Source: a virus
Virus record (IMG/VR): IMGVR_UViG_3300002518_002845
Coordinates: 1-47,689 of that record
Strand: one strand, 5' to 3'
DNA length: 47,689 nt
Below, one piece after another: positions 1 through 47,689 of this stretch (within the stretch, counting starts at the first letter, position 1; every line of letters starts with the position of its first letter). The translations under genes and the position numbers were made by a program. Under the pieces are notes generated by a model that made no database searches, was not told the DNA's origin, and saw only the letters and a list, made by a program, of their open reading frames with translations.

Positions 1-640
1 CTGCCGGCCGCAAGAGAATTCTGTAGTAATGTCTTCACGAAACTGAAGGAGCGCCGCTGCTGACATCTACAGGGATGCTAAGAGCCCTGCGAAGTCAGAG
101 GTGTAGTCAGGTGGCTACACTAACATCTGGAGCCCCAAACCGAGGTAGCCGGGCGCGAATTCTGCAACCAGAATTCGGTAGTAATTACAGGGGGTTGCTG
201 GGTTGTAAGCCAGAAAACAGGGCTAAAACACCCTGCGTCGATGGTCCCAGGTCAACCAGCTTCCTACGCTACATCTGGGCCCTTGGTAGCTAAAACCTGG
301 AATTCTTTTCTCAGTCACTTAACCCAGTTAACTATATAGAATCATTAAGGAAGTCTGGTTAGAGTATTCGTGTTGGGGTAGTAAGGAAACGTCTCAGATG
401 TGGGAGCAGATTCCTAACCCCCTGTAATTGTTACCGAATTCACAACTCTTGACACGGCAACACCGATGCAACCAAGCCAGACTTCCATGCACCATAATCA
501 ACCAACGAATTCACCGCTTTCCAACGATATCAACGCGCCCCGCGCCAGATATCAGAGCACTCAGACATCTCTAAACGGGCGCTGTAGGTGATCGGCTCGA
601 TCGGCCTCCATGGCCGATCGACAGCGGTTTACAAAAACTT
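1..640 (+). ncRNA. Large structured non-coding RNA candidate
   Basis: No convincing gene lies here, but the stretch is full of pairing. Arms 171-196 and 416-441 form a 26-bp helix if two G-U pairs (181-431, 182-430) are allowed, as expected of an RNA rather than a DNA site. Arms 349-360 and 475-486 form 12 bp (one G-U) and cross the first helix, giving a pseudoknot; 370-375/458-463 nests inside the second. Local hairpins: 21-33/62-72 with a 2-nt bulge, 101-106/115-120, 156-164/169-177 (9 bp, CAAC loop), 218-222/231-235, 319-323/327-331, 526-531/548-553 and 598-606/612-620; the last is enclosed by 580-585/621-626. The long-range pair 50-55/578-583 could close the molecule. Size, pseudoknot and phage setting recall the GOLLD and ROOL ornate RNAs, but I could not match a consensus. 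Strand is inferred from the + strand genes that follow. The true 5' end may lie off the window. Confidence 0.6.
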
Positions 641-731
641 TACAGCTTAATGCTTTGGCTACATTTAGTCGCATGGTATTGTGTAGGTAATGCAAGAGCC
701 TTCCGCGCACCCGGCGACACCTGCCCTCAGA

Positions 732-6411: not shown

Positions 6412-6575
6412 TCAGATCGATAGGAACCCGGAGGACCTAATCCTCCGGGCTTCCTAAAGATGATACGAACATTGTGTTGTCCTCCTTCGGCTTCCCTGTG
6501 TTCTGCCGCTACGCTCTGTGCGATATGCTGTTCGTGTCATCTTTAGGAAGCAAATACTGAAGGACTCCTTCAGTT
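6400..6575 (+). ncRNA. Structured RNA element with competing helices
   Basis: Four helices lie in a row. GATCTGA/TCAGATC (6400-6406/6412-6418) overlaps a stop codon. CCCGGAGGA/TCCTCCGGG (6427-6435/6441-6449) is extended by AGGAA/TTCCT (6422-6426/6451-6455). A 20-bp arm pairs 6451-6470 with 6530-6549, with one G-U pair. ACTGAAGG/CCTTCAGT lies at about 6556-6574. The segment 6451-6455 can join either the second or the third helix but not both, a switch-like arrangement. No U-run follows, so it is not a simple terminator. It may be an attenuator, a processing site or a small RNA. Confidence 0.55.
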
Positions 6576-6592
6576 CTAACATAGGTAGAGTC

Positions 6593-7159
6593 TTGGAAAT
6601 CAAGTGTACCGTCTGTGGCGGAAGTCTCTTGAATGTTCTTCAAGAGTGTCGTGGAACTGTGACTCACTGCAATGTCACTCAGCGATATCGAGTGTCTGTT
6701 GAAGACGGTGAGCTTTCTCTAAAGATTAATATTCACTCGGCTGAAAGCTATAGCCCCTTGAGAATCTGGGCTCATCCTACATTAAGGATGTCAGATAAAC
6801 TGAATGCTCTCAAGAGATTGCGTGGACATCTACTGAGCATGAAGAGAAGTGCTCACCAGATGTACACAGAGAACTTATTCAATTGCGACAAGTATATTGG
6901 TCGGGCAAATACATCGCTGCTCGACTCCGCCGTCTCTGATGCTGCCAAGAAACCTGAAACAGCTTTCGACTTAAGCATCAGGCTAAGTAGTAAAGGGAAG
7001 ACACATCGCTTGTGGATGGACGTCATAACAAAGATGGCGATAGCTGCCGGGAAGAAACCAAGCGACGTAGAAAGTGCGATGATTGATATCACCGGTGCCG
7101 TAAGACTCGCAAGAGAACTTGGCGTAGAAATCCCAATCGGGTTACAGGGGATCAAGTGA
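6593..7159 (+). CDS. Zinc-ribbon protein of unknown function, about 188 aa
   Basis: The N-terminus has a C-x2-C (KCTVCGG) and a second Cys pair (ECRGTVTHC), a likely zinc ribbon, followed by strand-rich and helical parts. I chose TTG at 6593, just upstream of the first Cys pair, because the alternative GTG at 6518 lies within the stem-loop region. The upstream frame is open, so the longer form (213 aa) is possible. The GTGA overlap with the helicase gene implies coupled translation. Function is unknown. Confidence 0.6.
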   Translation: MEIKCTVCGGSLLNVLQECRGTVTHCNVTQRYRVSVEDGELSLKINIHSAESYSPLRIWAHPTLRMSDKLNALKRLRGHLLSMKRSAHQMYTENLFNCDKYIGRANTSLLDSAVSDAAKKPETAFDLSIRLSSKGKTHRLWMDVITKMAIAAGKKPSDVESAMIDITGAVRLARELGVEIPIGLQGIK

Positions 7160-20700: not shown

Positions 20701-20756
20701 GAGACGCAAAAATGCCCGCCGTGAGGTTATGACTTCACGGCGGGCATTCTCGTCTC
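20701..20756. terminator. Bidirectional terminator between convergent halves
   Basis: A 14-bp perfect stem (20711-20724/20735-20748) is extended by GAGACG/CGTCTC (20701-20706/20751-20756), with A-rich and T-containing flanks on each side. It fills the gap between the last + strand gene and the first - strand stop, so it would end transcription from both directions. Confidence 0.9.
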
Positions 20757-20760
20757 TTAA

Positions 20761-39792: not shown

Positions 39793-40620
39793 CTAAAGGT
39801 TCTCAAGTACATTAATATCCCCGCTTGCAATCGCCCTTGCAGCATCTGGGTTATGAGTTTTAATGTACTCTTCAATAGAGGAAACCCGACCGCCATCGCC
39901 AATTTCAGGCCGGTCCTCTGGGGATTGTCGGTTCTTATCAATGCGGCTGCCATCCCGCATTGATCCTTTCCGATCTCGAAGGGTCTTCTCTTGCGATCTA
40001 ATAGCGGCATTACGATGCCCCTTTAGAATCGAATCAATCTTAAAAATTGTTAGCATTTCGCGTGGACTAATTCCATTGGAGAACTTATCACGCATGAAAT
40101 TCTCAAATGCATCAACGTCTCCCTGATCAGAGAAAGCGATTGTAGTATCACCAAACTGCTGTGGGCTACCGATAAGCGATTCCATATCTCGCCGGAACTT
40201 ATCAGTCCTATCACGCATACGTGATTCTTTCTCACGCCTGTTCATCTGGTTATTGAAATCTTCCTGAGTAAAATTCTTTGGCTCCTCTCCATTGTTCCTC
40301 TTCTGCATTGCAGAACGTGCGTTGTCAGCATCTCGCCTCTGACGCTCATGTCTTGCTCTAAGATTGTTAACAAGAGCCTGACTTACTTCATTTGTTTTAC
40401 TACTGTTGAAGTTTTGCTGAATCGCATTGTATGCGGCACGGCTGTCTTCAGGGACAGAGTCGGAGTTTCCATCCCAACTATCCCAAGAGAATCCTCCACC
40501 ATCTCCAGCGGGAGCGGGAGCGCTATCTCCAGCGGGAGCGCTATCTCCAGCGGGAGCGCTATCTCCAGCGGGAGCATCGTCACCAGACGTAAAGTAAACA
40601 ACAAGATTAACCATCGACAT
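39793..40620 (-). CDS. Scaffolding protein candidate, 275 aa
   Basis: The N-terminal third is disordered with repeated APAGDS units, and the middle is a charged helix-rich region (RRDADNARSAMQKRN, NRREKESRMRDRTDKFRRD). The C-terminal end is a small helical domain (SSIEEYIKTHNPDAARAIAS). Disordered plus coiled-coil composition and position between portal and capsid are typical of scaffolding proteins that guide capsid assembly. The start at 40620 has AAGGA eight bases upstream and overlaps the zinc-ribbon gene by 14 bases. Confidence 0.7.
   Translation of the reverse strand: MSMVNLVVYFTSGDDAPAGDSAPAGDSAPAGDSAPAPAGDGGGFSWDSWDGNSDSVPEDSRAAYNAIQQNFNSSKTNEVSQALVNNLRARHERQRRDADNARSAMQKRNNGEEPKNFTQEDFNNQMNRREKESRMRDRTDKFRRDMESLIGSPQQFGDTTIAFSDQGDVDAFENFMRDKFSNGISPREMLTIFKIDSILKGHRNAAIRSQEKTLRDRKGSMRDGSRIDKNRQSPEDRPEIGDGGRVSSIEEYIKTHNPDAARAIASGDINVLENL
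40501..40575 (-). repeat. Tandem repeat in scaffold gene
   Basis: ATCTCCAGCGGGAGC occurs four times (40501, 40525, 40543 and 40561), the last three with an 18-bp period. It encodes repeated Ala-Pro-Ala-Gly-Asp-Ser on the - strand. Copy number is likely to vary between relatives by slippage. Confidence 0.85.
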
Positions 40621-41117: not shown

Positions 41118-42950
41118 CTATAACCTATTGAGCGCAGATAGCGCATTGTCTATCGAGCCACCATCTGGGTTCCCTTGAGACGCAAGTGGCCTTCCAGAAG
41201 ATACCACACCTTGCCCCGGCATACCAGCTTGCGATCTTTCATCAATCATTCCAGGGGCTTGCAGGCGCGCCATAACCTCTGGGCCCATACCAAAGAAGCG
41301 CCTACCCTCATCGGCAAGTTCTCGCCAATTATATTCATTCGCAAACTGTGGAAGTGCAGCAACATTCTTAACAAATTGCACAAAAAGTAGCTGAGATTCT
41401 GCATTTGCTGGGCCTTCAAGGTCCCTTACAGAAATCTTATAGCGGTAAGAAGTTGTATAATCGTTGCCTCCTGGCTCCAATTCTACAAGGTCTCCACCAA
41501 AAGAATACACATGCGCTCTTTGAGTGCTGAAAAGATTTAGTAGATGTACAAGCTTTATCACAGCCTCATTGCCTGCCTTCACTACTGGGCCACGAATAGC
41601 TTCCATCATTAATGCAGATGTCTGCAGTAGTGCCTCAGTCTGCCTCGCTGTGATCTTCTTGACCGGAGTTCCACGATCAATATCTGTCTGGCCTGCCTCA
41701 CCCTGTGCGAGTTTGGATACAAGATTCAGAGATTGAATATGATCATAGGTTAATCCAGGGCCTTCAATATACTTAAGGTCTTCAGCCTGACCCGCCTCTA
41801 AATTAATCCTGCCATTGTAATTGACATTGTTAACATTAATCTCTTGAACCTTAGTAATGGACGCCCCGGACCCAATTGTCCACTTGATAGCAAGGCCAGC
41901 CCTCATCCTCTTAAACAGCCCCTCAAGAATCTTAGCATAATTATCAGTATATGGTCTAAGATCCTCAATCCAACTTTTTGCGATAATGCGCATAGAGGAA
42001 CGGCTCTTTGCTGGAATAATGGGAATCATTCCACCATAAGGATTCGGGGCGTTCTTTAGCACAATGCTGGGATGGCTAAGTACATGAGCAAGATACCAAC
42101 CAGAATATCTTGGATCATTTCTATCACGCCGGATGAATGTGATAGCAACAACGACTGGCTTATCAATATAAGTACCACCAGGAGTTTCATCAATAAGAAT
42201 CTCAAATTCAGATTGACTCGCTACAATATTATCAGGCAAAGTCATATCTGTAACAAGCTTCAGTTCCTCAAGAGAAATAAGGACAAGCTTAGTCACATAA
42301 TCTGCGTCTCTAAAATCTTTAGTCTCCCTCGGCAGGACAATAAAGAATGGAGAAACATTTGTAATCCATGGAGCGCCAGCTTCAGGATCAAACGTCACTA
42401 CAGGTTCAGGAGTACTTGTAATGTTTGGCTCCAATGTAGCATCAAAGGGAGTAATATTGTCAGCCTCATTCCCAAGCTCGGCACGCACCTCATCCTCGGG
42501 AACTTCTACATACTCATCTACATAATCTTCTGGATTAAAGGAATTTGGACCATTATGCAGGATGGAGCGCATAATATCAAAGCTATGAAGGTCAAGTGTA
42601 TGTCCAACTTCCAGCCAGCCAGTCCCAGCCCAGAGGCTATCTTCAGTAGCATCATCAAGAGTTTCTTTAAGCTCGACAGAGCGAGACAGGGAGTTACTCA
42701 TAATGGTAAGCTCCCTTGCCTTGCCAGCGAAGTCTGGATCGTCAGCATCTACGCGCACAAAGAAATTCTTATGAATCAGGCGAGCACGAACTGCTCCAGC
42801 GAACTCCTTAGTCAGATTACCAAACCTCGATCCCTCACCTTCATTATTCATCACATCTCTGTTGTTTCTCCAGATGCGATGATACTTTGATTGGATGTGC
42901 CTGTAATCTTCAAGAATACGGGTATTCCATTTGTCTACGTTAAGAGCCAT
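41118..42950 (-). CDS. Portal protein, 610 aa
   Basis: Position directly after the large terminase, length, and layout fit a portal protein: a helical N-terminus (RILEDYRHIQSKYHRIWRNN), a strand-rich wing, a long helix with repeated charged positions (DLRPYTDNYAKILEGLFKRM), and a C-terminal disordered stretch rich in Gly and Pro. The portal ring is the channel for DNA packaging and exit. The start shares a base with the terminase stop. Confidence 0.8.
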   Translation of the reverse strand: MALNVDKWNTRILEDYRHIQSKYHRIWRNNRDVMNNEGEGSRFGNLTKEFAGAVRARLIHKNFFVRVDADDPDFAGKARELTIMSNSLSRSVELKETLDDATEDSLWAGTGWLEVGHTLDLHSFDIMRSILHNGPNSFNPEDYVDEYVEVPEDEVRAELGNEADNITPFDATLEPNITSTPEPVVTFDPEAGAPWITNVSPFFIVLPRETKDFRDADYVTKLVLISLEELKLVTDMTLPDNIVASQSEFEILIDETPGGTYIDKPVVVAITFIRRDRNDPRYSGWYLAHVLSHPSIVLKNAPNPYGGMIPIIPAKSRSSMRIIAKSWIEDLRPYTDNYAKILEGLFKRMRAGLAIKWTIGSGASITKVQEINVNNVNYNGRINLEAGQAEDLKYIEGPGLTYDHIQSLNLVSKLAQGEAGQTDIDRGTPVKKITARQTEALLQTSALMMEAIRGPVVKAGNEAVIKLVHLLNLFSTQRAHVYSFGGDLVELEPGGNDYTTSYRYKISVRDLEGPANAESQLLFVQFVKNVAALPQFANEYNWRELADEGRRFFGMGPEVMARLQAPGMIDERSQAGMPGQGVVSSGRPLASQGNPDGGSIDNALSALNRL

Positions 42951-45145
42951 TAGAAAATATCCATTATTGCAAAGTCATCAGAATCAAAGTTAGTTAGTTG
43001 CTCACCTAACTCGACCCCATTATATTCCAGTACATTTGAGAATTCTAAATCATGAGGCTTTGGAACTACTTCCTCTTTAACAGAAATTCTAACTCCAACA
43101 AGATCATAAATCATATGCCAAGTATGCATCTTAGCCATAACACAATCATCATGCTCGCCGCTCATAGCTTCGGGCCGGCCATCCTTGTTAGTGATAAACT
43201 TAGAGACCTCATAAGCAAGATTTTTATCAACGATGCATTCTGGATGCCTGCGCAAATGATGCCTTAGTTCAATAAGCATAGTCTTGCGGTTGCTCGGCAA
43301 CGTCTTATTCCATGCACGATCTTCATATGGACCATGCCCACTTCTTAAGTAAACTTTGTTGTAGCCAGTCTGCTTAAACATAACCCAACAAGCTTCGCCA
43401 ACACTGTTGCGTTCAATATTAACCTTTGCTTGGTTATACAAAATCGCAAGAAGCAGAGCAGGGTGAGCAAACTCTTCTGGCTTAATCCTGCCACGATATA
43501 CCGCAACAGTTTTACCAAACTCATCATCAACATTCAAAACGCTAAAGTCTGGGTCCAGTCCTGAAGACGACTCAATCTGTCTACCCTCAGCAACGTCGCC
43601 ACCAATAAAATACTTCATCCCCTTCATCGGACGCTCATAAATCCTCAATGGACCAGAACGGTCAGGGATAACCTGCGGCGAATAATGCACCCAAGAGAAA
43701 AGCCTGCTGTAATCATTGTTGCCTTTCTTATCAACAATGTTACCAACCATAATCGGTTCTTGTGTAAGCTTCAATCCCTCAGTAGCAAGATTATTACCAA
43801 AGAAGAGAGTCCCAACAGCCGCCCACGCATGCTCTGGTGTCGTCGGGTACTCTTGATCAAAGTCTACACGCACACCCTTGTAGGTATTCTTGATCGTTAC
43901 TCTACGCCAAAAAATTTGCTGGACTGACAAATTGAAATTATTTGCAATCTCTTCTTCTGTAATTGATATGTCACCGACCTCATCAGTCTCGCAAACTTCT
44001 ATATCTTCATTTAGGTAAATAAATTCCCCGCTCTCTTTATAACAATTCTCAGGAGGCTCAGCACTGTACTCTGGGGATAGATACCAGGGGAGGAATACCG
44101 GAGTGGTCTTTGTTAAGCCAGCTTCCTTGCCGGACATAACGCGGTCCCACTTCTTAAAGAACTCTCCCATACCCTGTGCCGTTGATTCATCTACAACGAA
44201 AGTATTGGGAGCAGATGGCATACCCGGCAGCAGGCTCTTATCGACCAACGCTGCACGCCCTTTAGGCCACTTCGGCTTCTCACTAAGATGGATCGCATGA
44301 ACCATCTCAGAAGTACCAGGGTTGGGGCTATGTGCAGATTCGAACAGCATCTTACTACCGTTGCTCAGGACAATACGCTTGCCACCCTTTGCAACAATTG
44401 TCGGGATGTCCTGCTCTGGGAATAGCTTCTCAAGGTTCTCTAACCAGTTAATAATCATATCCCGCTTTTCATACATATGCGGGTCTTTATCAATCATGAA
44501 GAATGCAACAAAGTGGTCCTTCTGAACCATCATCCATACCCAGAAGGCAAGGATAGCTGTTGTCATTCCAAGCTGGCGTGCTTTAAGTAGGATGACTCTT
44601 ACAGGGACACCCTTCAACCATAGGTCAATTATGACCGCAACGAACCTGATCTGGTGTTCGTTTACCTCAAAAGAACCATAACCACCAAGAGGATGCTTTG
44701 GATTCAGCCCAGCACGGTACATGATGGTACAAGCCATCTTGCAGAAGTAAACGTAGTCCTCTCGGCAACGCCTCCATCTCGCTGAGGATTCAGATTCCTT
44801 ATCTGGAATAGCAATCTGTCTTGGGACAGATGCGGTCACACCGCTCTTAGTCCTGGTTACTCCAGCATCAGCAGATACTTTGCTCTCAATTATGTTAGTG
44901 ATCTCCCTTGGAGTACGTCCAGTCTTAACGATGACAAGCTGAATTGCCTCCTGGTTAAGCTGTGCGTCACTAATCTCTTTATCTTCAATCCCGCTAAGAA
45001 GCTCCTTTAGAGTGTCAACTGCTCCTTGTGCAATCTCAAGGTCTTCAAGAAGTTGAGGAGTCTCGCCTCCCTCTTTAAGACGCAACTCAATCATCATCTT
45101 CTGGGCGGATGCCCTGATAAGCTCAGATGATAGGTTGGTCCTCAT
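42950..45145 (-). CDS. terL: Terminase large subunit
   Basis: The 731-residue packaging motor has an ATPase domain with Walker A variant KARQLGMTT (about 187-195) and a HLSEKPKW segment with the acidic catalytic position. The C-terminal nuclease domain shows Asp in FIGGDVAEG (about 515), a Glu in a VNIERN strand and Asp pair in GEHDDCVMA (about 665), the RNase H-like triad. The N-terminal 150 residues are an extra helical region. The enzyme cuts and pumps genome DNA into the prohead through the portal. It overlaps the small-subunit candidate by four bases. Confidence 0.9.
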   Translation of the reverse strand: MRTNLSSELIRASAQKMMIELRLKEGGETPQLLEDLEIAQGAVDTLKELLSGIEDKEISDAQLNQEAIQLVIVKTGRTPREITNIIESKVSADAGVTRTKSGVTASVPRQIAIPDKESESSARWRRCREDYVYFCKMACTIMYRAGLNPKHPLGGYGSFEVNEHQIRFVAVIIDLWLKGVPVRVILLKARQLGMTTAILAFWVWMMVQKDHFVAFFMIDKDPHMYEKRDMIINWLENLEKLFPEQDIPTIVAKGGKRIVLSNGSKMLFESAHSPNPGTSEMVHAIHLSEKPKWPKGRAALVDKSLLPGMPSAPNTFVVDESTAQGMGEFFKKWDRVMSGKEAGLTKTTPVFLPWYLSPEYSAEPPENCYKESGEFIYLNEDIEVCETDEVGDISITEEEIANNFNLSVQQIFWRRVTIKNTYKGVRVDFDQEYPTTPEHAWAAVGTLFFGNNLATEGLKLTQEPIMVGNIVDKKGNNDYSRLFSWVHYSPQVIPDRSGPLRIYERPMKGMKYFIGGDVAEGRQIESSSGLDPDFSVLNVDDEFGKTVAVYRGRIKPEEFAHPALLLAILYNQAKVNIERNSVGEACWVMFKQTGYNKVYLRSGHGPYEDRAWNKTLPSNRKTMLIELRHHLRRHPECIVDKNLAYEVSKFITNKDGRPEAMSGEHDDCVMAKMHTWHMIYDLVGVRISVKEEVVPKPHDLEFSNVLEYNGVELGEQLTNFDSDDFAIMDIF

Positions 45146-45516
45146 TCGCTATTCTCAAAAATATTCTCAAGCTCAATGTCAACGCCTAAGCCCTCATGCT
45201 CGGCATTTGCAATAATGCGAGTATCTACAGATAGTCTTCTATGTGCGACCTCTGTAACCTTATTGCCTGATGTCCCTACAAGTTGTTTTGGAGCAATGCC
45301 AAGCTTTCCACCATGGAGAGCATCGTACACCATCGCTCCTCGCAATGCATCGTCTGGCTTAACAAGCACTTCTCTCTGGACAAGATTTCCATTAGAGTCA
45401 AACTTCCTCTTGATTGTTTCACCCTTGATCACTTGCGCAAGACTGTCCGCAATAGTTCTTGGATTAACATTCAGCTCATCTTCAAGGAGCTGGAGAAGTT
45501 CGTCTTTGTAACTCAT
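45142..45516 (-). CDS. Terminase small subunit candidate, 124 aa
   Basis: The short protein directly upstream of the large terminase has a helical start (YKDELLQLLEDELNVNPRTIADSLAQVI) that could be a DNA-binding helix pair, a strand-rich middle (KRKFDSNGNLVQREVLVKPD) and an acidic end. Position and size fit a small terminase subunit that recognises the packaging site. No family match is certain. It follows a leader region rich in hairpins. Confidence 0.55.
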   Translation of the reverse strand: MSYKDELLQLLEDELNVNPRTIADSLAQVIKGETIKRKFDSNGNLVQREVLVKPDDALRGAMVYDALHGGKLGIAPKQLVGTSGNKVTEVAHRRLSVDTRIIANAEHEGLGVDIELENIFENSE

Positions 45517-45793
45517 AAGCCACTCAAAAAGGTAATGGTCGTGTACCGAGATGGCGTCCCCAGTACACGACCATACGCAGATCTCGAAATCTACTTAATG
45601 GTTTTTAGCCTCCTCCATTCAGGGAGGCCCTCAACGTGACGCTAACCCTGCAGCCAAGCAGGGAAGGACCAACGCGTCTTCGGGTTAATGGTCGAGTATT
45701 AATCGACCTCCATGGCCATGGGGTTTGCCTTCTCTCTTATTCACCGTCGGCATCAGCGGTGGAGGCTCCTGACTACGAGTTGTCAGAAATTAT
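45517..45793 (-). promoter_or_regulatory. Hairpin-rich leader upstream of terminase genes
   Basis: This 277-bp gap has many short perfect helices: 45536-45546/45563-45573 (11 bp), 45608-45613/45623-45628, 45646-45651/45658-45663, 45690-45695/45703-45708, 45742-45746/45757-45761 and 45769-45773/45782-45786. Some arms have a second partner: 45643-45648 with 45682-45687, and 45608-45613 with 45761-45766, so more than one fold is possible. It could be a 5' control leader, a packaging-site region or a separate RNA. No clear promoter is seen. Confidence 0.55.
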
Positions 45794-46270
45794 TTAGGCG
45801 GACGCGAGTTCAGCCTTTAGTGACTTGACCAACTTCAAAGCGTCCTTGTGTGCCTTTTTAAGTTCCTTGTGCTCATTAGCAAGCTTGGCAGCTTTAGCTT
45901 TCGCCGCAGCAGTAGGTGCTCGGCTTGTGCGAGGACTATAGCCAAGCTCCTTGAGTGCCTTAATATAAGACGGCCCGAGCATCTTTGCTCCTTCTTTCAG
46001 CTCTGCTTCAGAAAGCTTGCCATGCTCAACATCAATGCCATTATCTTCCAGCAACATTAGAATCTGAATGTGCTGCTCAATCATGGCAAGGGCTTGGTAG
46101 TCCATTGTCACATTCGCCCATCGCCTTGCTGCCCGGATCAACTGCTCAAATACAATAGGGCCAAGCTGACGCCCACCGGACCGCAGAGGTCTCTTCTGCC
46201 TTGGAATGTGCAGAAGTCTGAGCAGGGGAACGACAAATGTTCTTGCCTCTTGTAGCTTACCGAAATTCAT
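45794..46270 (-). CDS. Helical protein with C-terminal coiled coil, 158 aa
   Basis: Start 46270 (MNFGKLQEAR) follows TAAGG at good spacing; a start 21 bases upstream overlaps the gene before. The protein is helical: a basic N-terminus, a helix bundle (LIRAARRWANVTMDYQALAMIEQHIQILMLL), then a Lys/Ala-rich coiled coil to the end (ANEHKELKKAHKDALKLVKSLKAELASA). It may be a late accessory or packaging helper. Function is unknown. Confidence 0.6.
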   Translation of the reverse strand: MNFGKLQEARTFVVPLLRLLHIPRQKRPLRSGGRQLGPIVFEQLIRAARRWANVTMDYQALAMIEQHIQILMLLEDNGIDVEHGKLSEAELKEGAKMLGPSYIKALKELGYSPRTSRAPTAAAKAKAAKLANEHKELKKAHKDALKLVKSLKAELASA

Positions 46271-46280
46271 TTTATCAACC

Positions 46281-46577
46281 TTATTTTTCATCTTCTAATG
46301 TATGTGCATGCTCAAGTGGAAGCCACCTGTATTTTATTCTTCTCTTATCCGCAATGTCTACACGCTTCCTAATACTGGTTCCGTTTCCGTCATATACATG
46401 CAAATGAACGCGGCCAGTTGGTGTAACTACTGTTACGAAACCAAATAAATATGAGCTTCTGTCATACTCGTCTGTATAAAAGGCTACAACATCCCCGCGT
46501 CTTGGTGGAGGGAAGGTAAATTTAAAGTCGTCAATAAATACAACTTTCTCTTGTTCTTCGACTAACACGTCGTACAT
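46281..46577 (-). CDS. Small strand-rich protein, 98 aa
   Basis: It has an SH3-like pattern: FKFTFPPPRRGDVVAFYTDE, SSYLFGFVTVVTPTGRVHLHVYDG and ADKRRIKYRWLPLEH. Small barrels of this type bind nucleic acid or peptides. It is the first small gene after the long structured gap on the - strand and is probably transcribed with the late genes. Function is unknown. Confidence 0.6.
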   Translation of the reverse strand: MYDVLVEEQEKVVFIDDFKFTFPPPRRGDVVAFYTDEYDRSSYLFGFVTVVTPTGRVHLHVYDGNGTSIRKRVDIADKRRIKYRWLPLEHAHTLEDEK

Positions 46578-46616
46578 CCATAAATAAAAAGCGCATTTGC
46601 CTACAGGGAAACTAAC

Positions 46617-46817
46617 ATGGTATGCAAGCGGTGTACAAGTGTTAGTTATTTCCTTAGTAATTACAATGGCTTACATGGGGGATCTTTTGCAGATTGCTGT
46701 GTATGGTGCGGTGCATGCAGTGTGTTGGATGTTTACGATAGAAAATATTTTCTAATTTTCGTACTAAAAGGCTTTTTTATTGATTTTTTATATATTGTCG
46801 GTGAGGGTATAGGATAA
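46617..46817 (+). CDS. Possible Cys-rich membrane peptide, 66 aa
   Basis: This is an open frame on the + strand within the 400-bp gap. The first half has C-x2-C (CKRC) and a CC-x2-C-x2-C group (CCVWCGAC), and the second half is hydrophobic (KYFLIFVLKGFFIDFLYIVG). Zinc ribbon plus membrane segment is plausible, but ribosome-site evidence is weak (CAGGG 9 bases upstream) and the direction is opposite to all neighbours. It may be chance. Confidence 0.3.
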   Translation: MVCKRCTSVSYFLSNYNGLHGGSFADCCVWCGACSVLDVYDRKYFLIFVLKGFFIDFLYIVGEGIG

Positions 46818-46859
46818 GCAAAATATAGGGTGTTGGTGGTGGGGGAGCCGCAGAATGTA

Positions 46860-46983
46860 CTGGCACGGATCGTGCAGGGGTGCAACATCCGTGCCAGATA
46901 TCTGCCCCTGCCATCCAGCAACCCCAGACCAGCAAAGGCCGGCTGCCATCCGGCAGCCGGCCCGATCACTGGGAGGGGTTGCT
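46860..46983. ncRNA. Structured intergenic RNA with possible pseudoknot
   Basis: Helix 1 is CTGGCACGGA (46860-46869) with TCCGTGCCAG (46888-46897). Seven bases of its loop, GCAGGGG (46874-46880), can pair with CCCCTGC (46905-46911), giving an H-type pseudoknot. Helix 2 is an 11-bp perfect stem (46937-46947/46952-46962) with a 4-base loop, enclosed by AGCAACCCC (46917-46925)/GGGGTTGCT (46975-46983). The block directly follows the stop codon of the - strand gene at 46982, so it may be its 3' end or terminator; a separate RNA on either strand is also possible. The other 280 bp of the gap (46578-46859) is AT-rich, with runs of T and A near 46,770-46,800 that could hold a late promoter, though I cannot define one. 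Confidence 0.55.
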
Positions 46984-47689
46984 ACTCGCTGCGAGAGGCT
47001 ACGAGCCCGTTGTAACGCACGCACCCATCGATGCTCTTACCATTGCAGGTGCCGATCGGCCAGGTGTGGGTGGCCATCGGCAGCCCCTTGAGCTTGCCGC
47101 CCATGTGTACAAGGTGCCTGCCAAGGTCCAGCCACGTAGGAGGCATCTCGCTAAGCAGGTACCGCTCCTTAAGCACCGCGTGGCGCTGATCACGCTCCTC
47201 CTGTTGATCGGCCTCACTGGTCTGATCGGCCTCCCAGCGATCCGCTTGCTCCATCTCCCAGCCACGCATAATCTGAGCGATCATACGGCGCTTAGTGATG
47301 TTGATCTGGGTGAGTACGATCAGCCTGTGATCAGCGTGCTGATCGGCCTCCAGAAACGCCTCGTAGTAGTCTTGGCTCGCTGCTGCGCCGGCCTTGCCAC
47401 AGGCTCTCATGATGGCCTTGCCAGCACACTTGGGGGCCGGCTTGCGGCGCTCGCGCTCCTCCTGCCTCACTGCATCCGTGGCAGCAGTGATCGCGGCCTC
47501 CTGCTCCTGTTCCGCCTGCTTGATCTCTCCGGCTGCCTCCATGTAGGGTACCGTACCGCAGATCTCCTGCACCACCTTGTGGTCCTCTCCCTGCTTGATC
47601 AGCAGCCCGGCGATCCCTGCCATGGAGATCATGCCCATGGCAGCCATCGCCTCGGCCTCCTGCCTGCGCTGATCGATGCTCTTGCTCTC
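46982..47689 (-). CDS. Helical charged protein, truncated by window edge
   Basis: The frame is open to the right edge, with the first clear Met inside the window at 47647. At least 235 residues are visible. An N-terminal part has a short hydrophobic stretch (MGMISMAGIAGLLI), then long Glu/Gln/Ala-rich helices with repeated EADQ/HADH units, and a more regular C-terminal part (PPTWLDLGRHLVHMGGKLKG, then KSIDGCVRYNG). The DNA is GC-rich and very rich in GATC. If the genome is circular, the gene would continue through position 1 to an ATG at 64-66, overlapping the left-end RNA. Function is unknown. Confidence 0.6.
   Translation of the reverse strand, partial: ESKSIDQRRQEAEAMAAMGMISMAGIAGLLIKQGEDHKVVQEICGTVPYMEAAGEIKQAEQEQEAAITAATDAVRQEERERRKPAPKCAGKAIMRACGKAGAAASQDYYEAFLEADQHADHRLIVLTQINITKRRMIAQIMRGWEMEQADRWEADQTSEADQQEERDQRHAVLKERYLLSEMPPTWLDLGRHLVHMGGKLKGLPMATHTWPIGTCNGKSIDGCVRYNGLVASRSE

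Follow-up and report, generated by a model that had tools for sequence, protein, structure and literature searches.

We investigated whether the left end of a viral genome (IMG/VR record IMGVR_UViG_3300002518_002845, analysed here as a window of 47,689 nucleotides) encodes a large, pseudoknotted RNA, as the original prediction had proposed for positions 1-640, or whether this stretch acts as DNA. From the comparisons described below, we favor, for 1 to ~621, DNA that acts in cis as a control region or replication origin over a structured RNA, a preference that we hold with somewhat less than even confidence.

The record is that of a complete virus of 47,689 bases and is classed as linear. Two short IMG/VR contigs, L006 and L004, bridge its ends; the map therefore closes into a circle, on which the region forms one uninterrupted intergenic stretch. 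L006 runs from window 42927-47689 through 294 new bases into window 1-650, with both window segments 100% identical, and L004 bridges the ends likewise while carrying a second allele. The 294 bp absent from the record (L006 4764-5057) bring the closed circle to ~47,983 bp. On this map, a gene-free divergent intergenic region of ~1.1 kb separates a leftward gene of 245 aa (L006 4056-4793, start at L006 4793) from a rightward ORF beginning at 835; the window holds 1-834 of this region and L006 4794-5057 supplies the remaining 264 nt. Right-hand genes lie on the + strand up to about 20.7 kb and include the replication genes (helicase, primase, PD-(D/E)XK nuclease, and D12 methyltransferase), whereas the left-hand block lies on the - strand and carries the structural genes and terminase. 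Where the two blocks converge, a strong hairpin (20701-20757) is probably a bidirectional terminator. Beside the region, the leftward gene is largely replaced or strongly diverged in the second allele (L004 858-1480 compared with window 46985-47689), with both flanks 98-99% identical between alleles, which suggests a recombination spot.

Protein reading frames running through 1-640, which had been named as evidence that would count against an RNA, were not apparent: no open frame there behaves as coding. A 72-aa frame at 75-293 was considered as a gene and rejected, with three of the four allele changes within it falling on first codon positions.

We next asked whether the region belongs to a known RNA family. 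Rfam models applied at gathering thresholds and at E ≤ 5 gave no match, including to GOLLD, ROOL (RF03087), OLE, and HEARO; by these models the region is not a recognizable member of any of the four. ROOL, sought as a positive control, was not found in the genomes sampled. Searches for relatives found no homologue beyond the same virus. Blastn with the region turned up nothing similar among 50,697 phage records or in a set of 72,556 plasmids, and nhmmer on 90 loci matched this virus alone. Scans of viral contigs with the helicase, the terminase, an early protein, and a terminase alignment, or with DNA patterns taken from the terminase motif and from three places within the region, returned nothing beyond the same virus, and scans of bacterial and archaeal genomes with the terminase motif and a repeat arm found no homologue. 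Patterns from pieces of the region recovered L004 and L006 plus chance matches. Matches to AGAATTCKGTAGTAAT and CCCCTGTAATTRYTACCG outside the virus were set aside: they have nothing in common beyond the pattern, and most fall within open reading frames, as expected by chance. The terminase identifies only the same virus, its next-best matches being proteins no more than about 30% identical. Within the collections searched, the phage lineage thus appears to be an orphan, and from the contig sets we read it as marine. In a very distant phage, ctQWt234 (L009 153-2357), we observed that ~2.2 kb upstream of the terminase carry no gene annotation, and here too there was no Rfam match.

The centerpiece of the proposed RNA was a 26-bp helix (171-196/416-441; hereafter helix A), and this could be drawn as claimed, with 24 Watson-Crick pairs and two adjacent G-U pairs on the + strand. 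Its score of 59.5 lies far beyond dinucleotide shuffles (26.5 ± 3.1; maximum 36.5, n = 150). Helix A is therefore established as a repeat and is clearly non-random, the sole one of the proposed helices to exceed chance. On the + strand both of its mismatched positions become G-U pairs, as an RNA would have it, although as a sign of RNA this is weak, for we estimate the chance of both doing so on one strand at roughly 0.05-0.2.

The same repeat is also part of a DNA-type anatomy. A 15-bp element, GAATTCKGTARYAAT, has exactly three exact copies genome-wide, all within the region: two direct (16-30 and 171-185, + strand) and one inverted (427-441, - strand), with irregular spacings of 155 and 256 bp. 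The second and third copies belong to helix A. The copy at 16-30, which could pair alternatively with 427-441, is unexplained by helix A and favors the DNA reading. Allowing up to 3 mismatches, the element has 19 matches in the genome, compared with 7.4 ± 2.6 in shuffles. GATCGGCC palindromes (GATCGGCCNCCATGGCCGATC) flank the block, on the right at 597-621 (TCGATCGGCC-TCCAT-GGCCGATCGA; z -6.3) and on the left as a close copy at L006 4916-4936, ~140 bp left of position 1. The loop of the left palindrome, in L006 and its L004 equivalent, differs between the alleles: one has ACCAT, and the other has ATGGA, which is the loop of the right palindrome in reverse complement. GATC sites are crowded between -930 and -45, where their density is among the highest in the genome; none occurs from -44 to 589, and three lie at 590-619. 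Together with a D12-class DNA adenine methyltransferase gene carried by the phage, this pattern also favors the DNA reading. So does the location of the region's most AT-rich 60-mers, all within 287-386. Six GAATTC sites in ~500 bp are notable, if not extreme once all hexamers are counted.

The region resembles phage or plasmid replication origins of the type that has repeated initiator sites in its divergent intergenic position, its GC-skew minimum, its repeated 15-bp element, and its GATC-dense flank together with the methyltransferase. Cumulative GC skew reaches its minimum at the region junction and its maximum near 20 kb; coinciding with the divergent genes, this counts toward the DNA reading, but skew follows gene direction, so the minimum does not show an origin. 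The region further differs from such origins in that its three irregularly spaced elements are not a classic iteron array. It contains no DnaA box, though many phage origins lack DnaA boxes, and no sigma-70-like promoter, and no initiator protein or known initiator gene was identified. At 600 nt it is also long for a binding-site cluster.

This locus has a divergent layout, repeats, palindromes, a skew minimum, and no coding-like frame, an anatomy that suits DNA control or an origin at least as well as RNA. From it, we infer protein binding and a replication or promoter function. Positions 1 to about 621 would form the core of the divergent intergenic region and act mainly as DNA. The three 15-bp elements (two direct and one inverted, with two of them extended into the 26-bp repeat) would be bound by a phage protein that starts replication or controls the gene blocks facing outward on either side. 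Further binding or methylation sites would be provided by the GATC-dense left side and by the GATCGGCC palindromes at the flanks. If true, the region would be a regulatory, possibly replication, hub of a phage lineage that lacked close relatives among the collections searched, which is useful but ordinary.

The main competing explanation, which we consider possible but somewhat less probable, is a new large structured phage noncoding RNA running rightward from near 1 to about 590-621 and built on helix A and a crossing stem. Such an RNA might self-assemble as GOLLD and ROOL do. In its favor, beyond the non-random helix A, are the lack of a coding-like ORF and zero indels between alleles in 600 nt. 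Against it stand the missing Rfam match and the lack of homologues, beyond one allele, in the collections searched, and we found no promoter- or terminator-like site that fits the ends of an RNA.

Folding energy was examined with shuffles as reference and with known RNAs and coding pieces of this phage as controls. Positions 1-596 folded with z-scores of -2.4 to -2.9 on the + strand and -2.8 to -3.0 on the - strand relative to shuffles, and in absolute terms the - strand was the more stable (-207 vs -190 kcal/mol). With one arm of helix A scrambled, z was still -1.8 and -2.4. Since E. coli 16S and 23S rRNA at the same length (z -1.0 to -2.5) and same-length coding pieces of this phage (z +0.7 to -6.1) span the same z-scores, we rejected folding-energy z as a criterion. 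Strand, by comparison, separated true RNAs in the few controls run: rnpB (RNase P RNA) gave z -4.3 in sense vs -1.0 in reverse complement, and 16S rRNA gave -1.4 vs -0.1. The strand asymmetry expected for a structured RNA was absent in 1-596, unlike in rnpB and 16S, which speaks against an RNA; equal z on both strands is expected for DNA inverted repeats. These controls show that fold energy and drawable helices of one sequence cannot establish a large RNA.

The prediction had also counted at least six local hairpins. Some are individually good, among them a 9-bp hairpin with a 4-nt loop at 100-121 (+; z -4.5) and a 9-bp hairpin at 156-177 (+; CGAATTCTG-CAAC-CAGAATTCG; z -5.4), which competes with helix A for 171-177, while 270-345 folds no better than shuffles. 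Pieces of 150 nt from the region had z near 0 (0.05, -1.0, 1.7, and -0.06 in one set; 0.04 for the region in the comparison with rRNA), a measure that does not discriminate either way, as 150-nt pieces of E. coli rRNA had mean z of only -0.4 and -0.6.

The pseudoknot fared less well than helix A. Stem B (349-360/475-486, +; 11 Watson-Crick pairs and one G-U) and, inside it, stem C (370-375/458-463, +; GUGUUG/CAACAC) are both present and both cross helix A, but stem B does not exceed chance: a crossing stem equal to its 12 bp arose in 9% or 7% of shuffles (two runs), and when internal loops were permitted, the strongest crossing duplex was equaled in 10.5%. Stem B plus nested stem C arose in 1% of shuffles, with thresholds chosen after the data were seen. 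With helix A kept, the fold sums to -174.2 without B and C and -29.6 for B and C, before any pseudoknot penalty, vs -190.3. By this rough energy sum the pseudoknotted fold is energetically competitive and could form, a point in favor of an RNA, and we regard a pseudoknot within 1-640 as possible.

In the collections searched, the only further allele bearing on the region is that of L004, which differs from the window by eight substitutions in 596 nt (98.7% identical, zero indels), at 50, 153, 155, 288, 291, 384, 511, and 514; a ninth difference, at 601, falls at the contig end. None lies inside helix A, whose 3' arm is unchanged, or the crossing stems. Some substitutions restore pairs and some break them. 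In the 3' domain (509-589, +), the changes at 511 and 514 complete a 10-bp outer helix with 578-587 in L004 (z -3.2; 0/200 shuffles as good), as the RNA reading would have it, though the window allele, mismatched at both positions, lacks this helix (z -0.5). The change at 50 extends a hairpin in L004, while at 153 and 155 they disrupt a helix predicted by folding, which counts against an RNA. As a set, the L004 substitutions made the + fold more stable than did 96.3% of random sets of the same changes, vs 67% on the - strand, leaving 3.7% of random mutants that fold as well on the + strand; this is weak evidence for an RNA.

The changes at 288 and 291 convert the palindrome TAGCTA at 287-292 (+) to TGGCCA in L004, preserving the palindrome. 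This AGCU-to-GGCC switch resembles that reported for a kissing loop of OLE, in which switches between palindromes of the AGCU/GGCC type support kissing contacts between the RNAs of a dimer (PMC12286853), and it too favors an RNA. It differs from the OLE case in being a single event at a site outside a stable hairpin loop, in a region without an Rfam match.

Template switching at DNA quasi-palindromes is another source of correlated changes by which inverted repeats become perfect. The correlated changes in L004 are for this reason only a hint toward RNA, and the allele differences, which include a changed palindrome loop and perfected quasi-palindromes, are typical of DNA inverted repeats. Because some of them restore complementarity within inverted repeats, the RNA reading stays alive.

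One mark of GOLLD is a closed multimer held by kissing loops and A-minor contacts. The region is like GOLLD and ROOL (PMC12286853) in its similar size, phage setting, freedom from genes, and many drawable helices, and unlike them in having neither a covariance-model match nor homologues and in being known from sequence alone. GOLLD is also often encoded near tRNA genes, whereas the whole record here contains no tRNA. The fullest version of the RNA explanation, which we think rather unlikely, is a large orphan RNA of the phage that shares no sequence relationship with GOLLD or ROOL, has the 26-bp helix as backbone and a composite stem crossing it, and pairs copy to copy through the self-complementary AGCU/GGCC loop. 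If the region does prove to be an RNA, a single genome would have led to a further class of large phage RNA, one that is a candidate for forming RNA-only assemblies.

A third explanation, which we judge improbable, is that a long 5' untranslated RNA leads the early operon to the right. Its hairpins would control the small early genes, and the repeats upstream would be promoter or operator sites. Its candidate hairpins lie at 597-621, 729-779, and 1149-1205, and both the rightward ORFs from 835 and the inverted repeats at 729-749/759-779 and 1149-1174/1180-1205 fit such a leader; however, no promoter was found upstream of 1, and the repeats and GATC-free block stop at about 590, well short of the genes. 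Least probable is an invertible DNA segment, in which a recombinase would flip the 219 bp between the 26-bp inverted repeats, since these repeats, suitable in size and spacing, are imperfect, the orientation is the same in all three records, and no recombinase or invertase was found among the proteins scanned.

Several features elsewhere in the genome stood out. Between consecutive small early genes, 1149-1235 and 1694-1775 form near-identical intergenic modules, each with a hairpin, CCAAAGCATC...GATGCTTTGG, followed by CTTAGGTAGGAACAACACAGGA and a start codon. A perfect 18-bp tandem repeat of 3.5 copies occurs within a coding frame at 40513-40575. Lastly, 6449-6551 (+) can form an imperfect hairpin of exceptional stability whose basal helix is 23 bp long; the hairpin immediately precedes or overlaps the GTG start codon of ORF 6518-7159. 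It has no Rfam match, and the enclosing stretch, 6430-6560, folds at -58.3 kcal/mol (z -8.7; 0/200 shuffles as good) and is more stable on the + than on the - strand. As a candidate for a single-hairpin RNA, 6449-6551 is stronger than 1-640.
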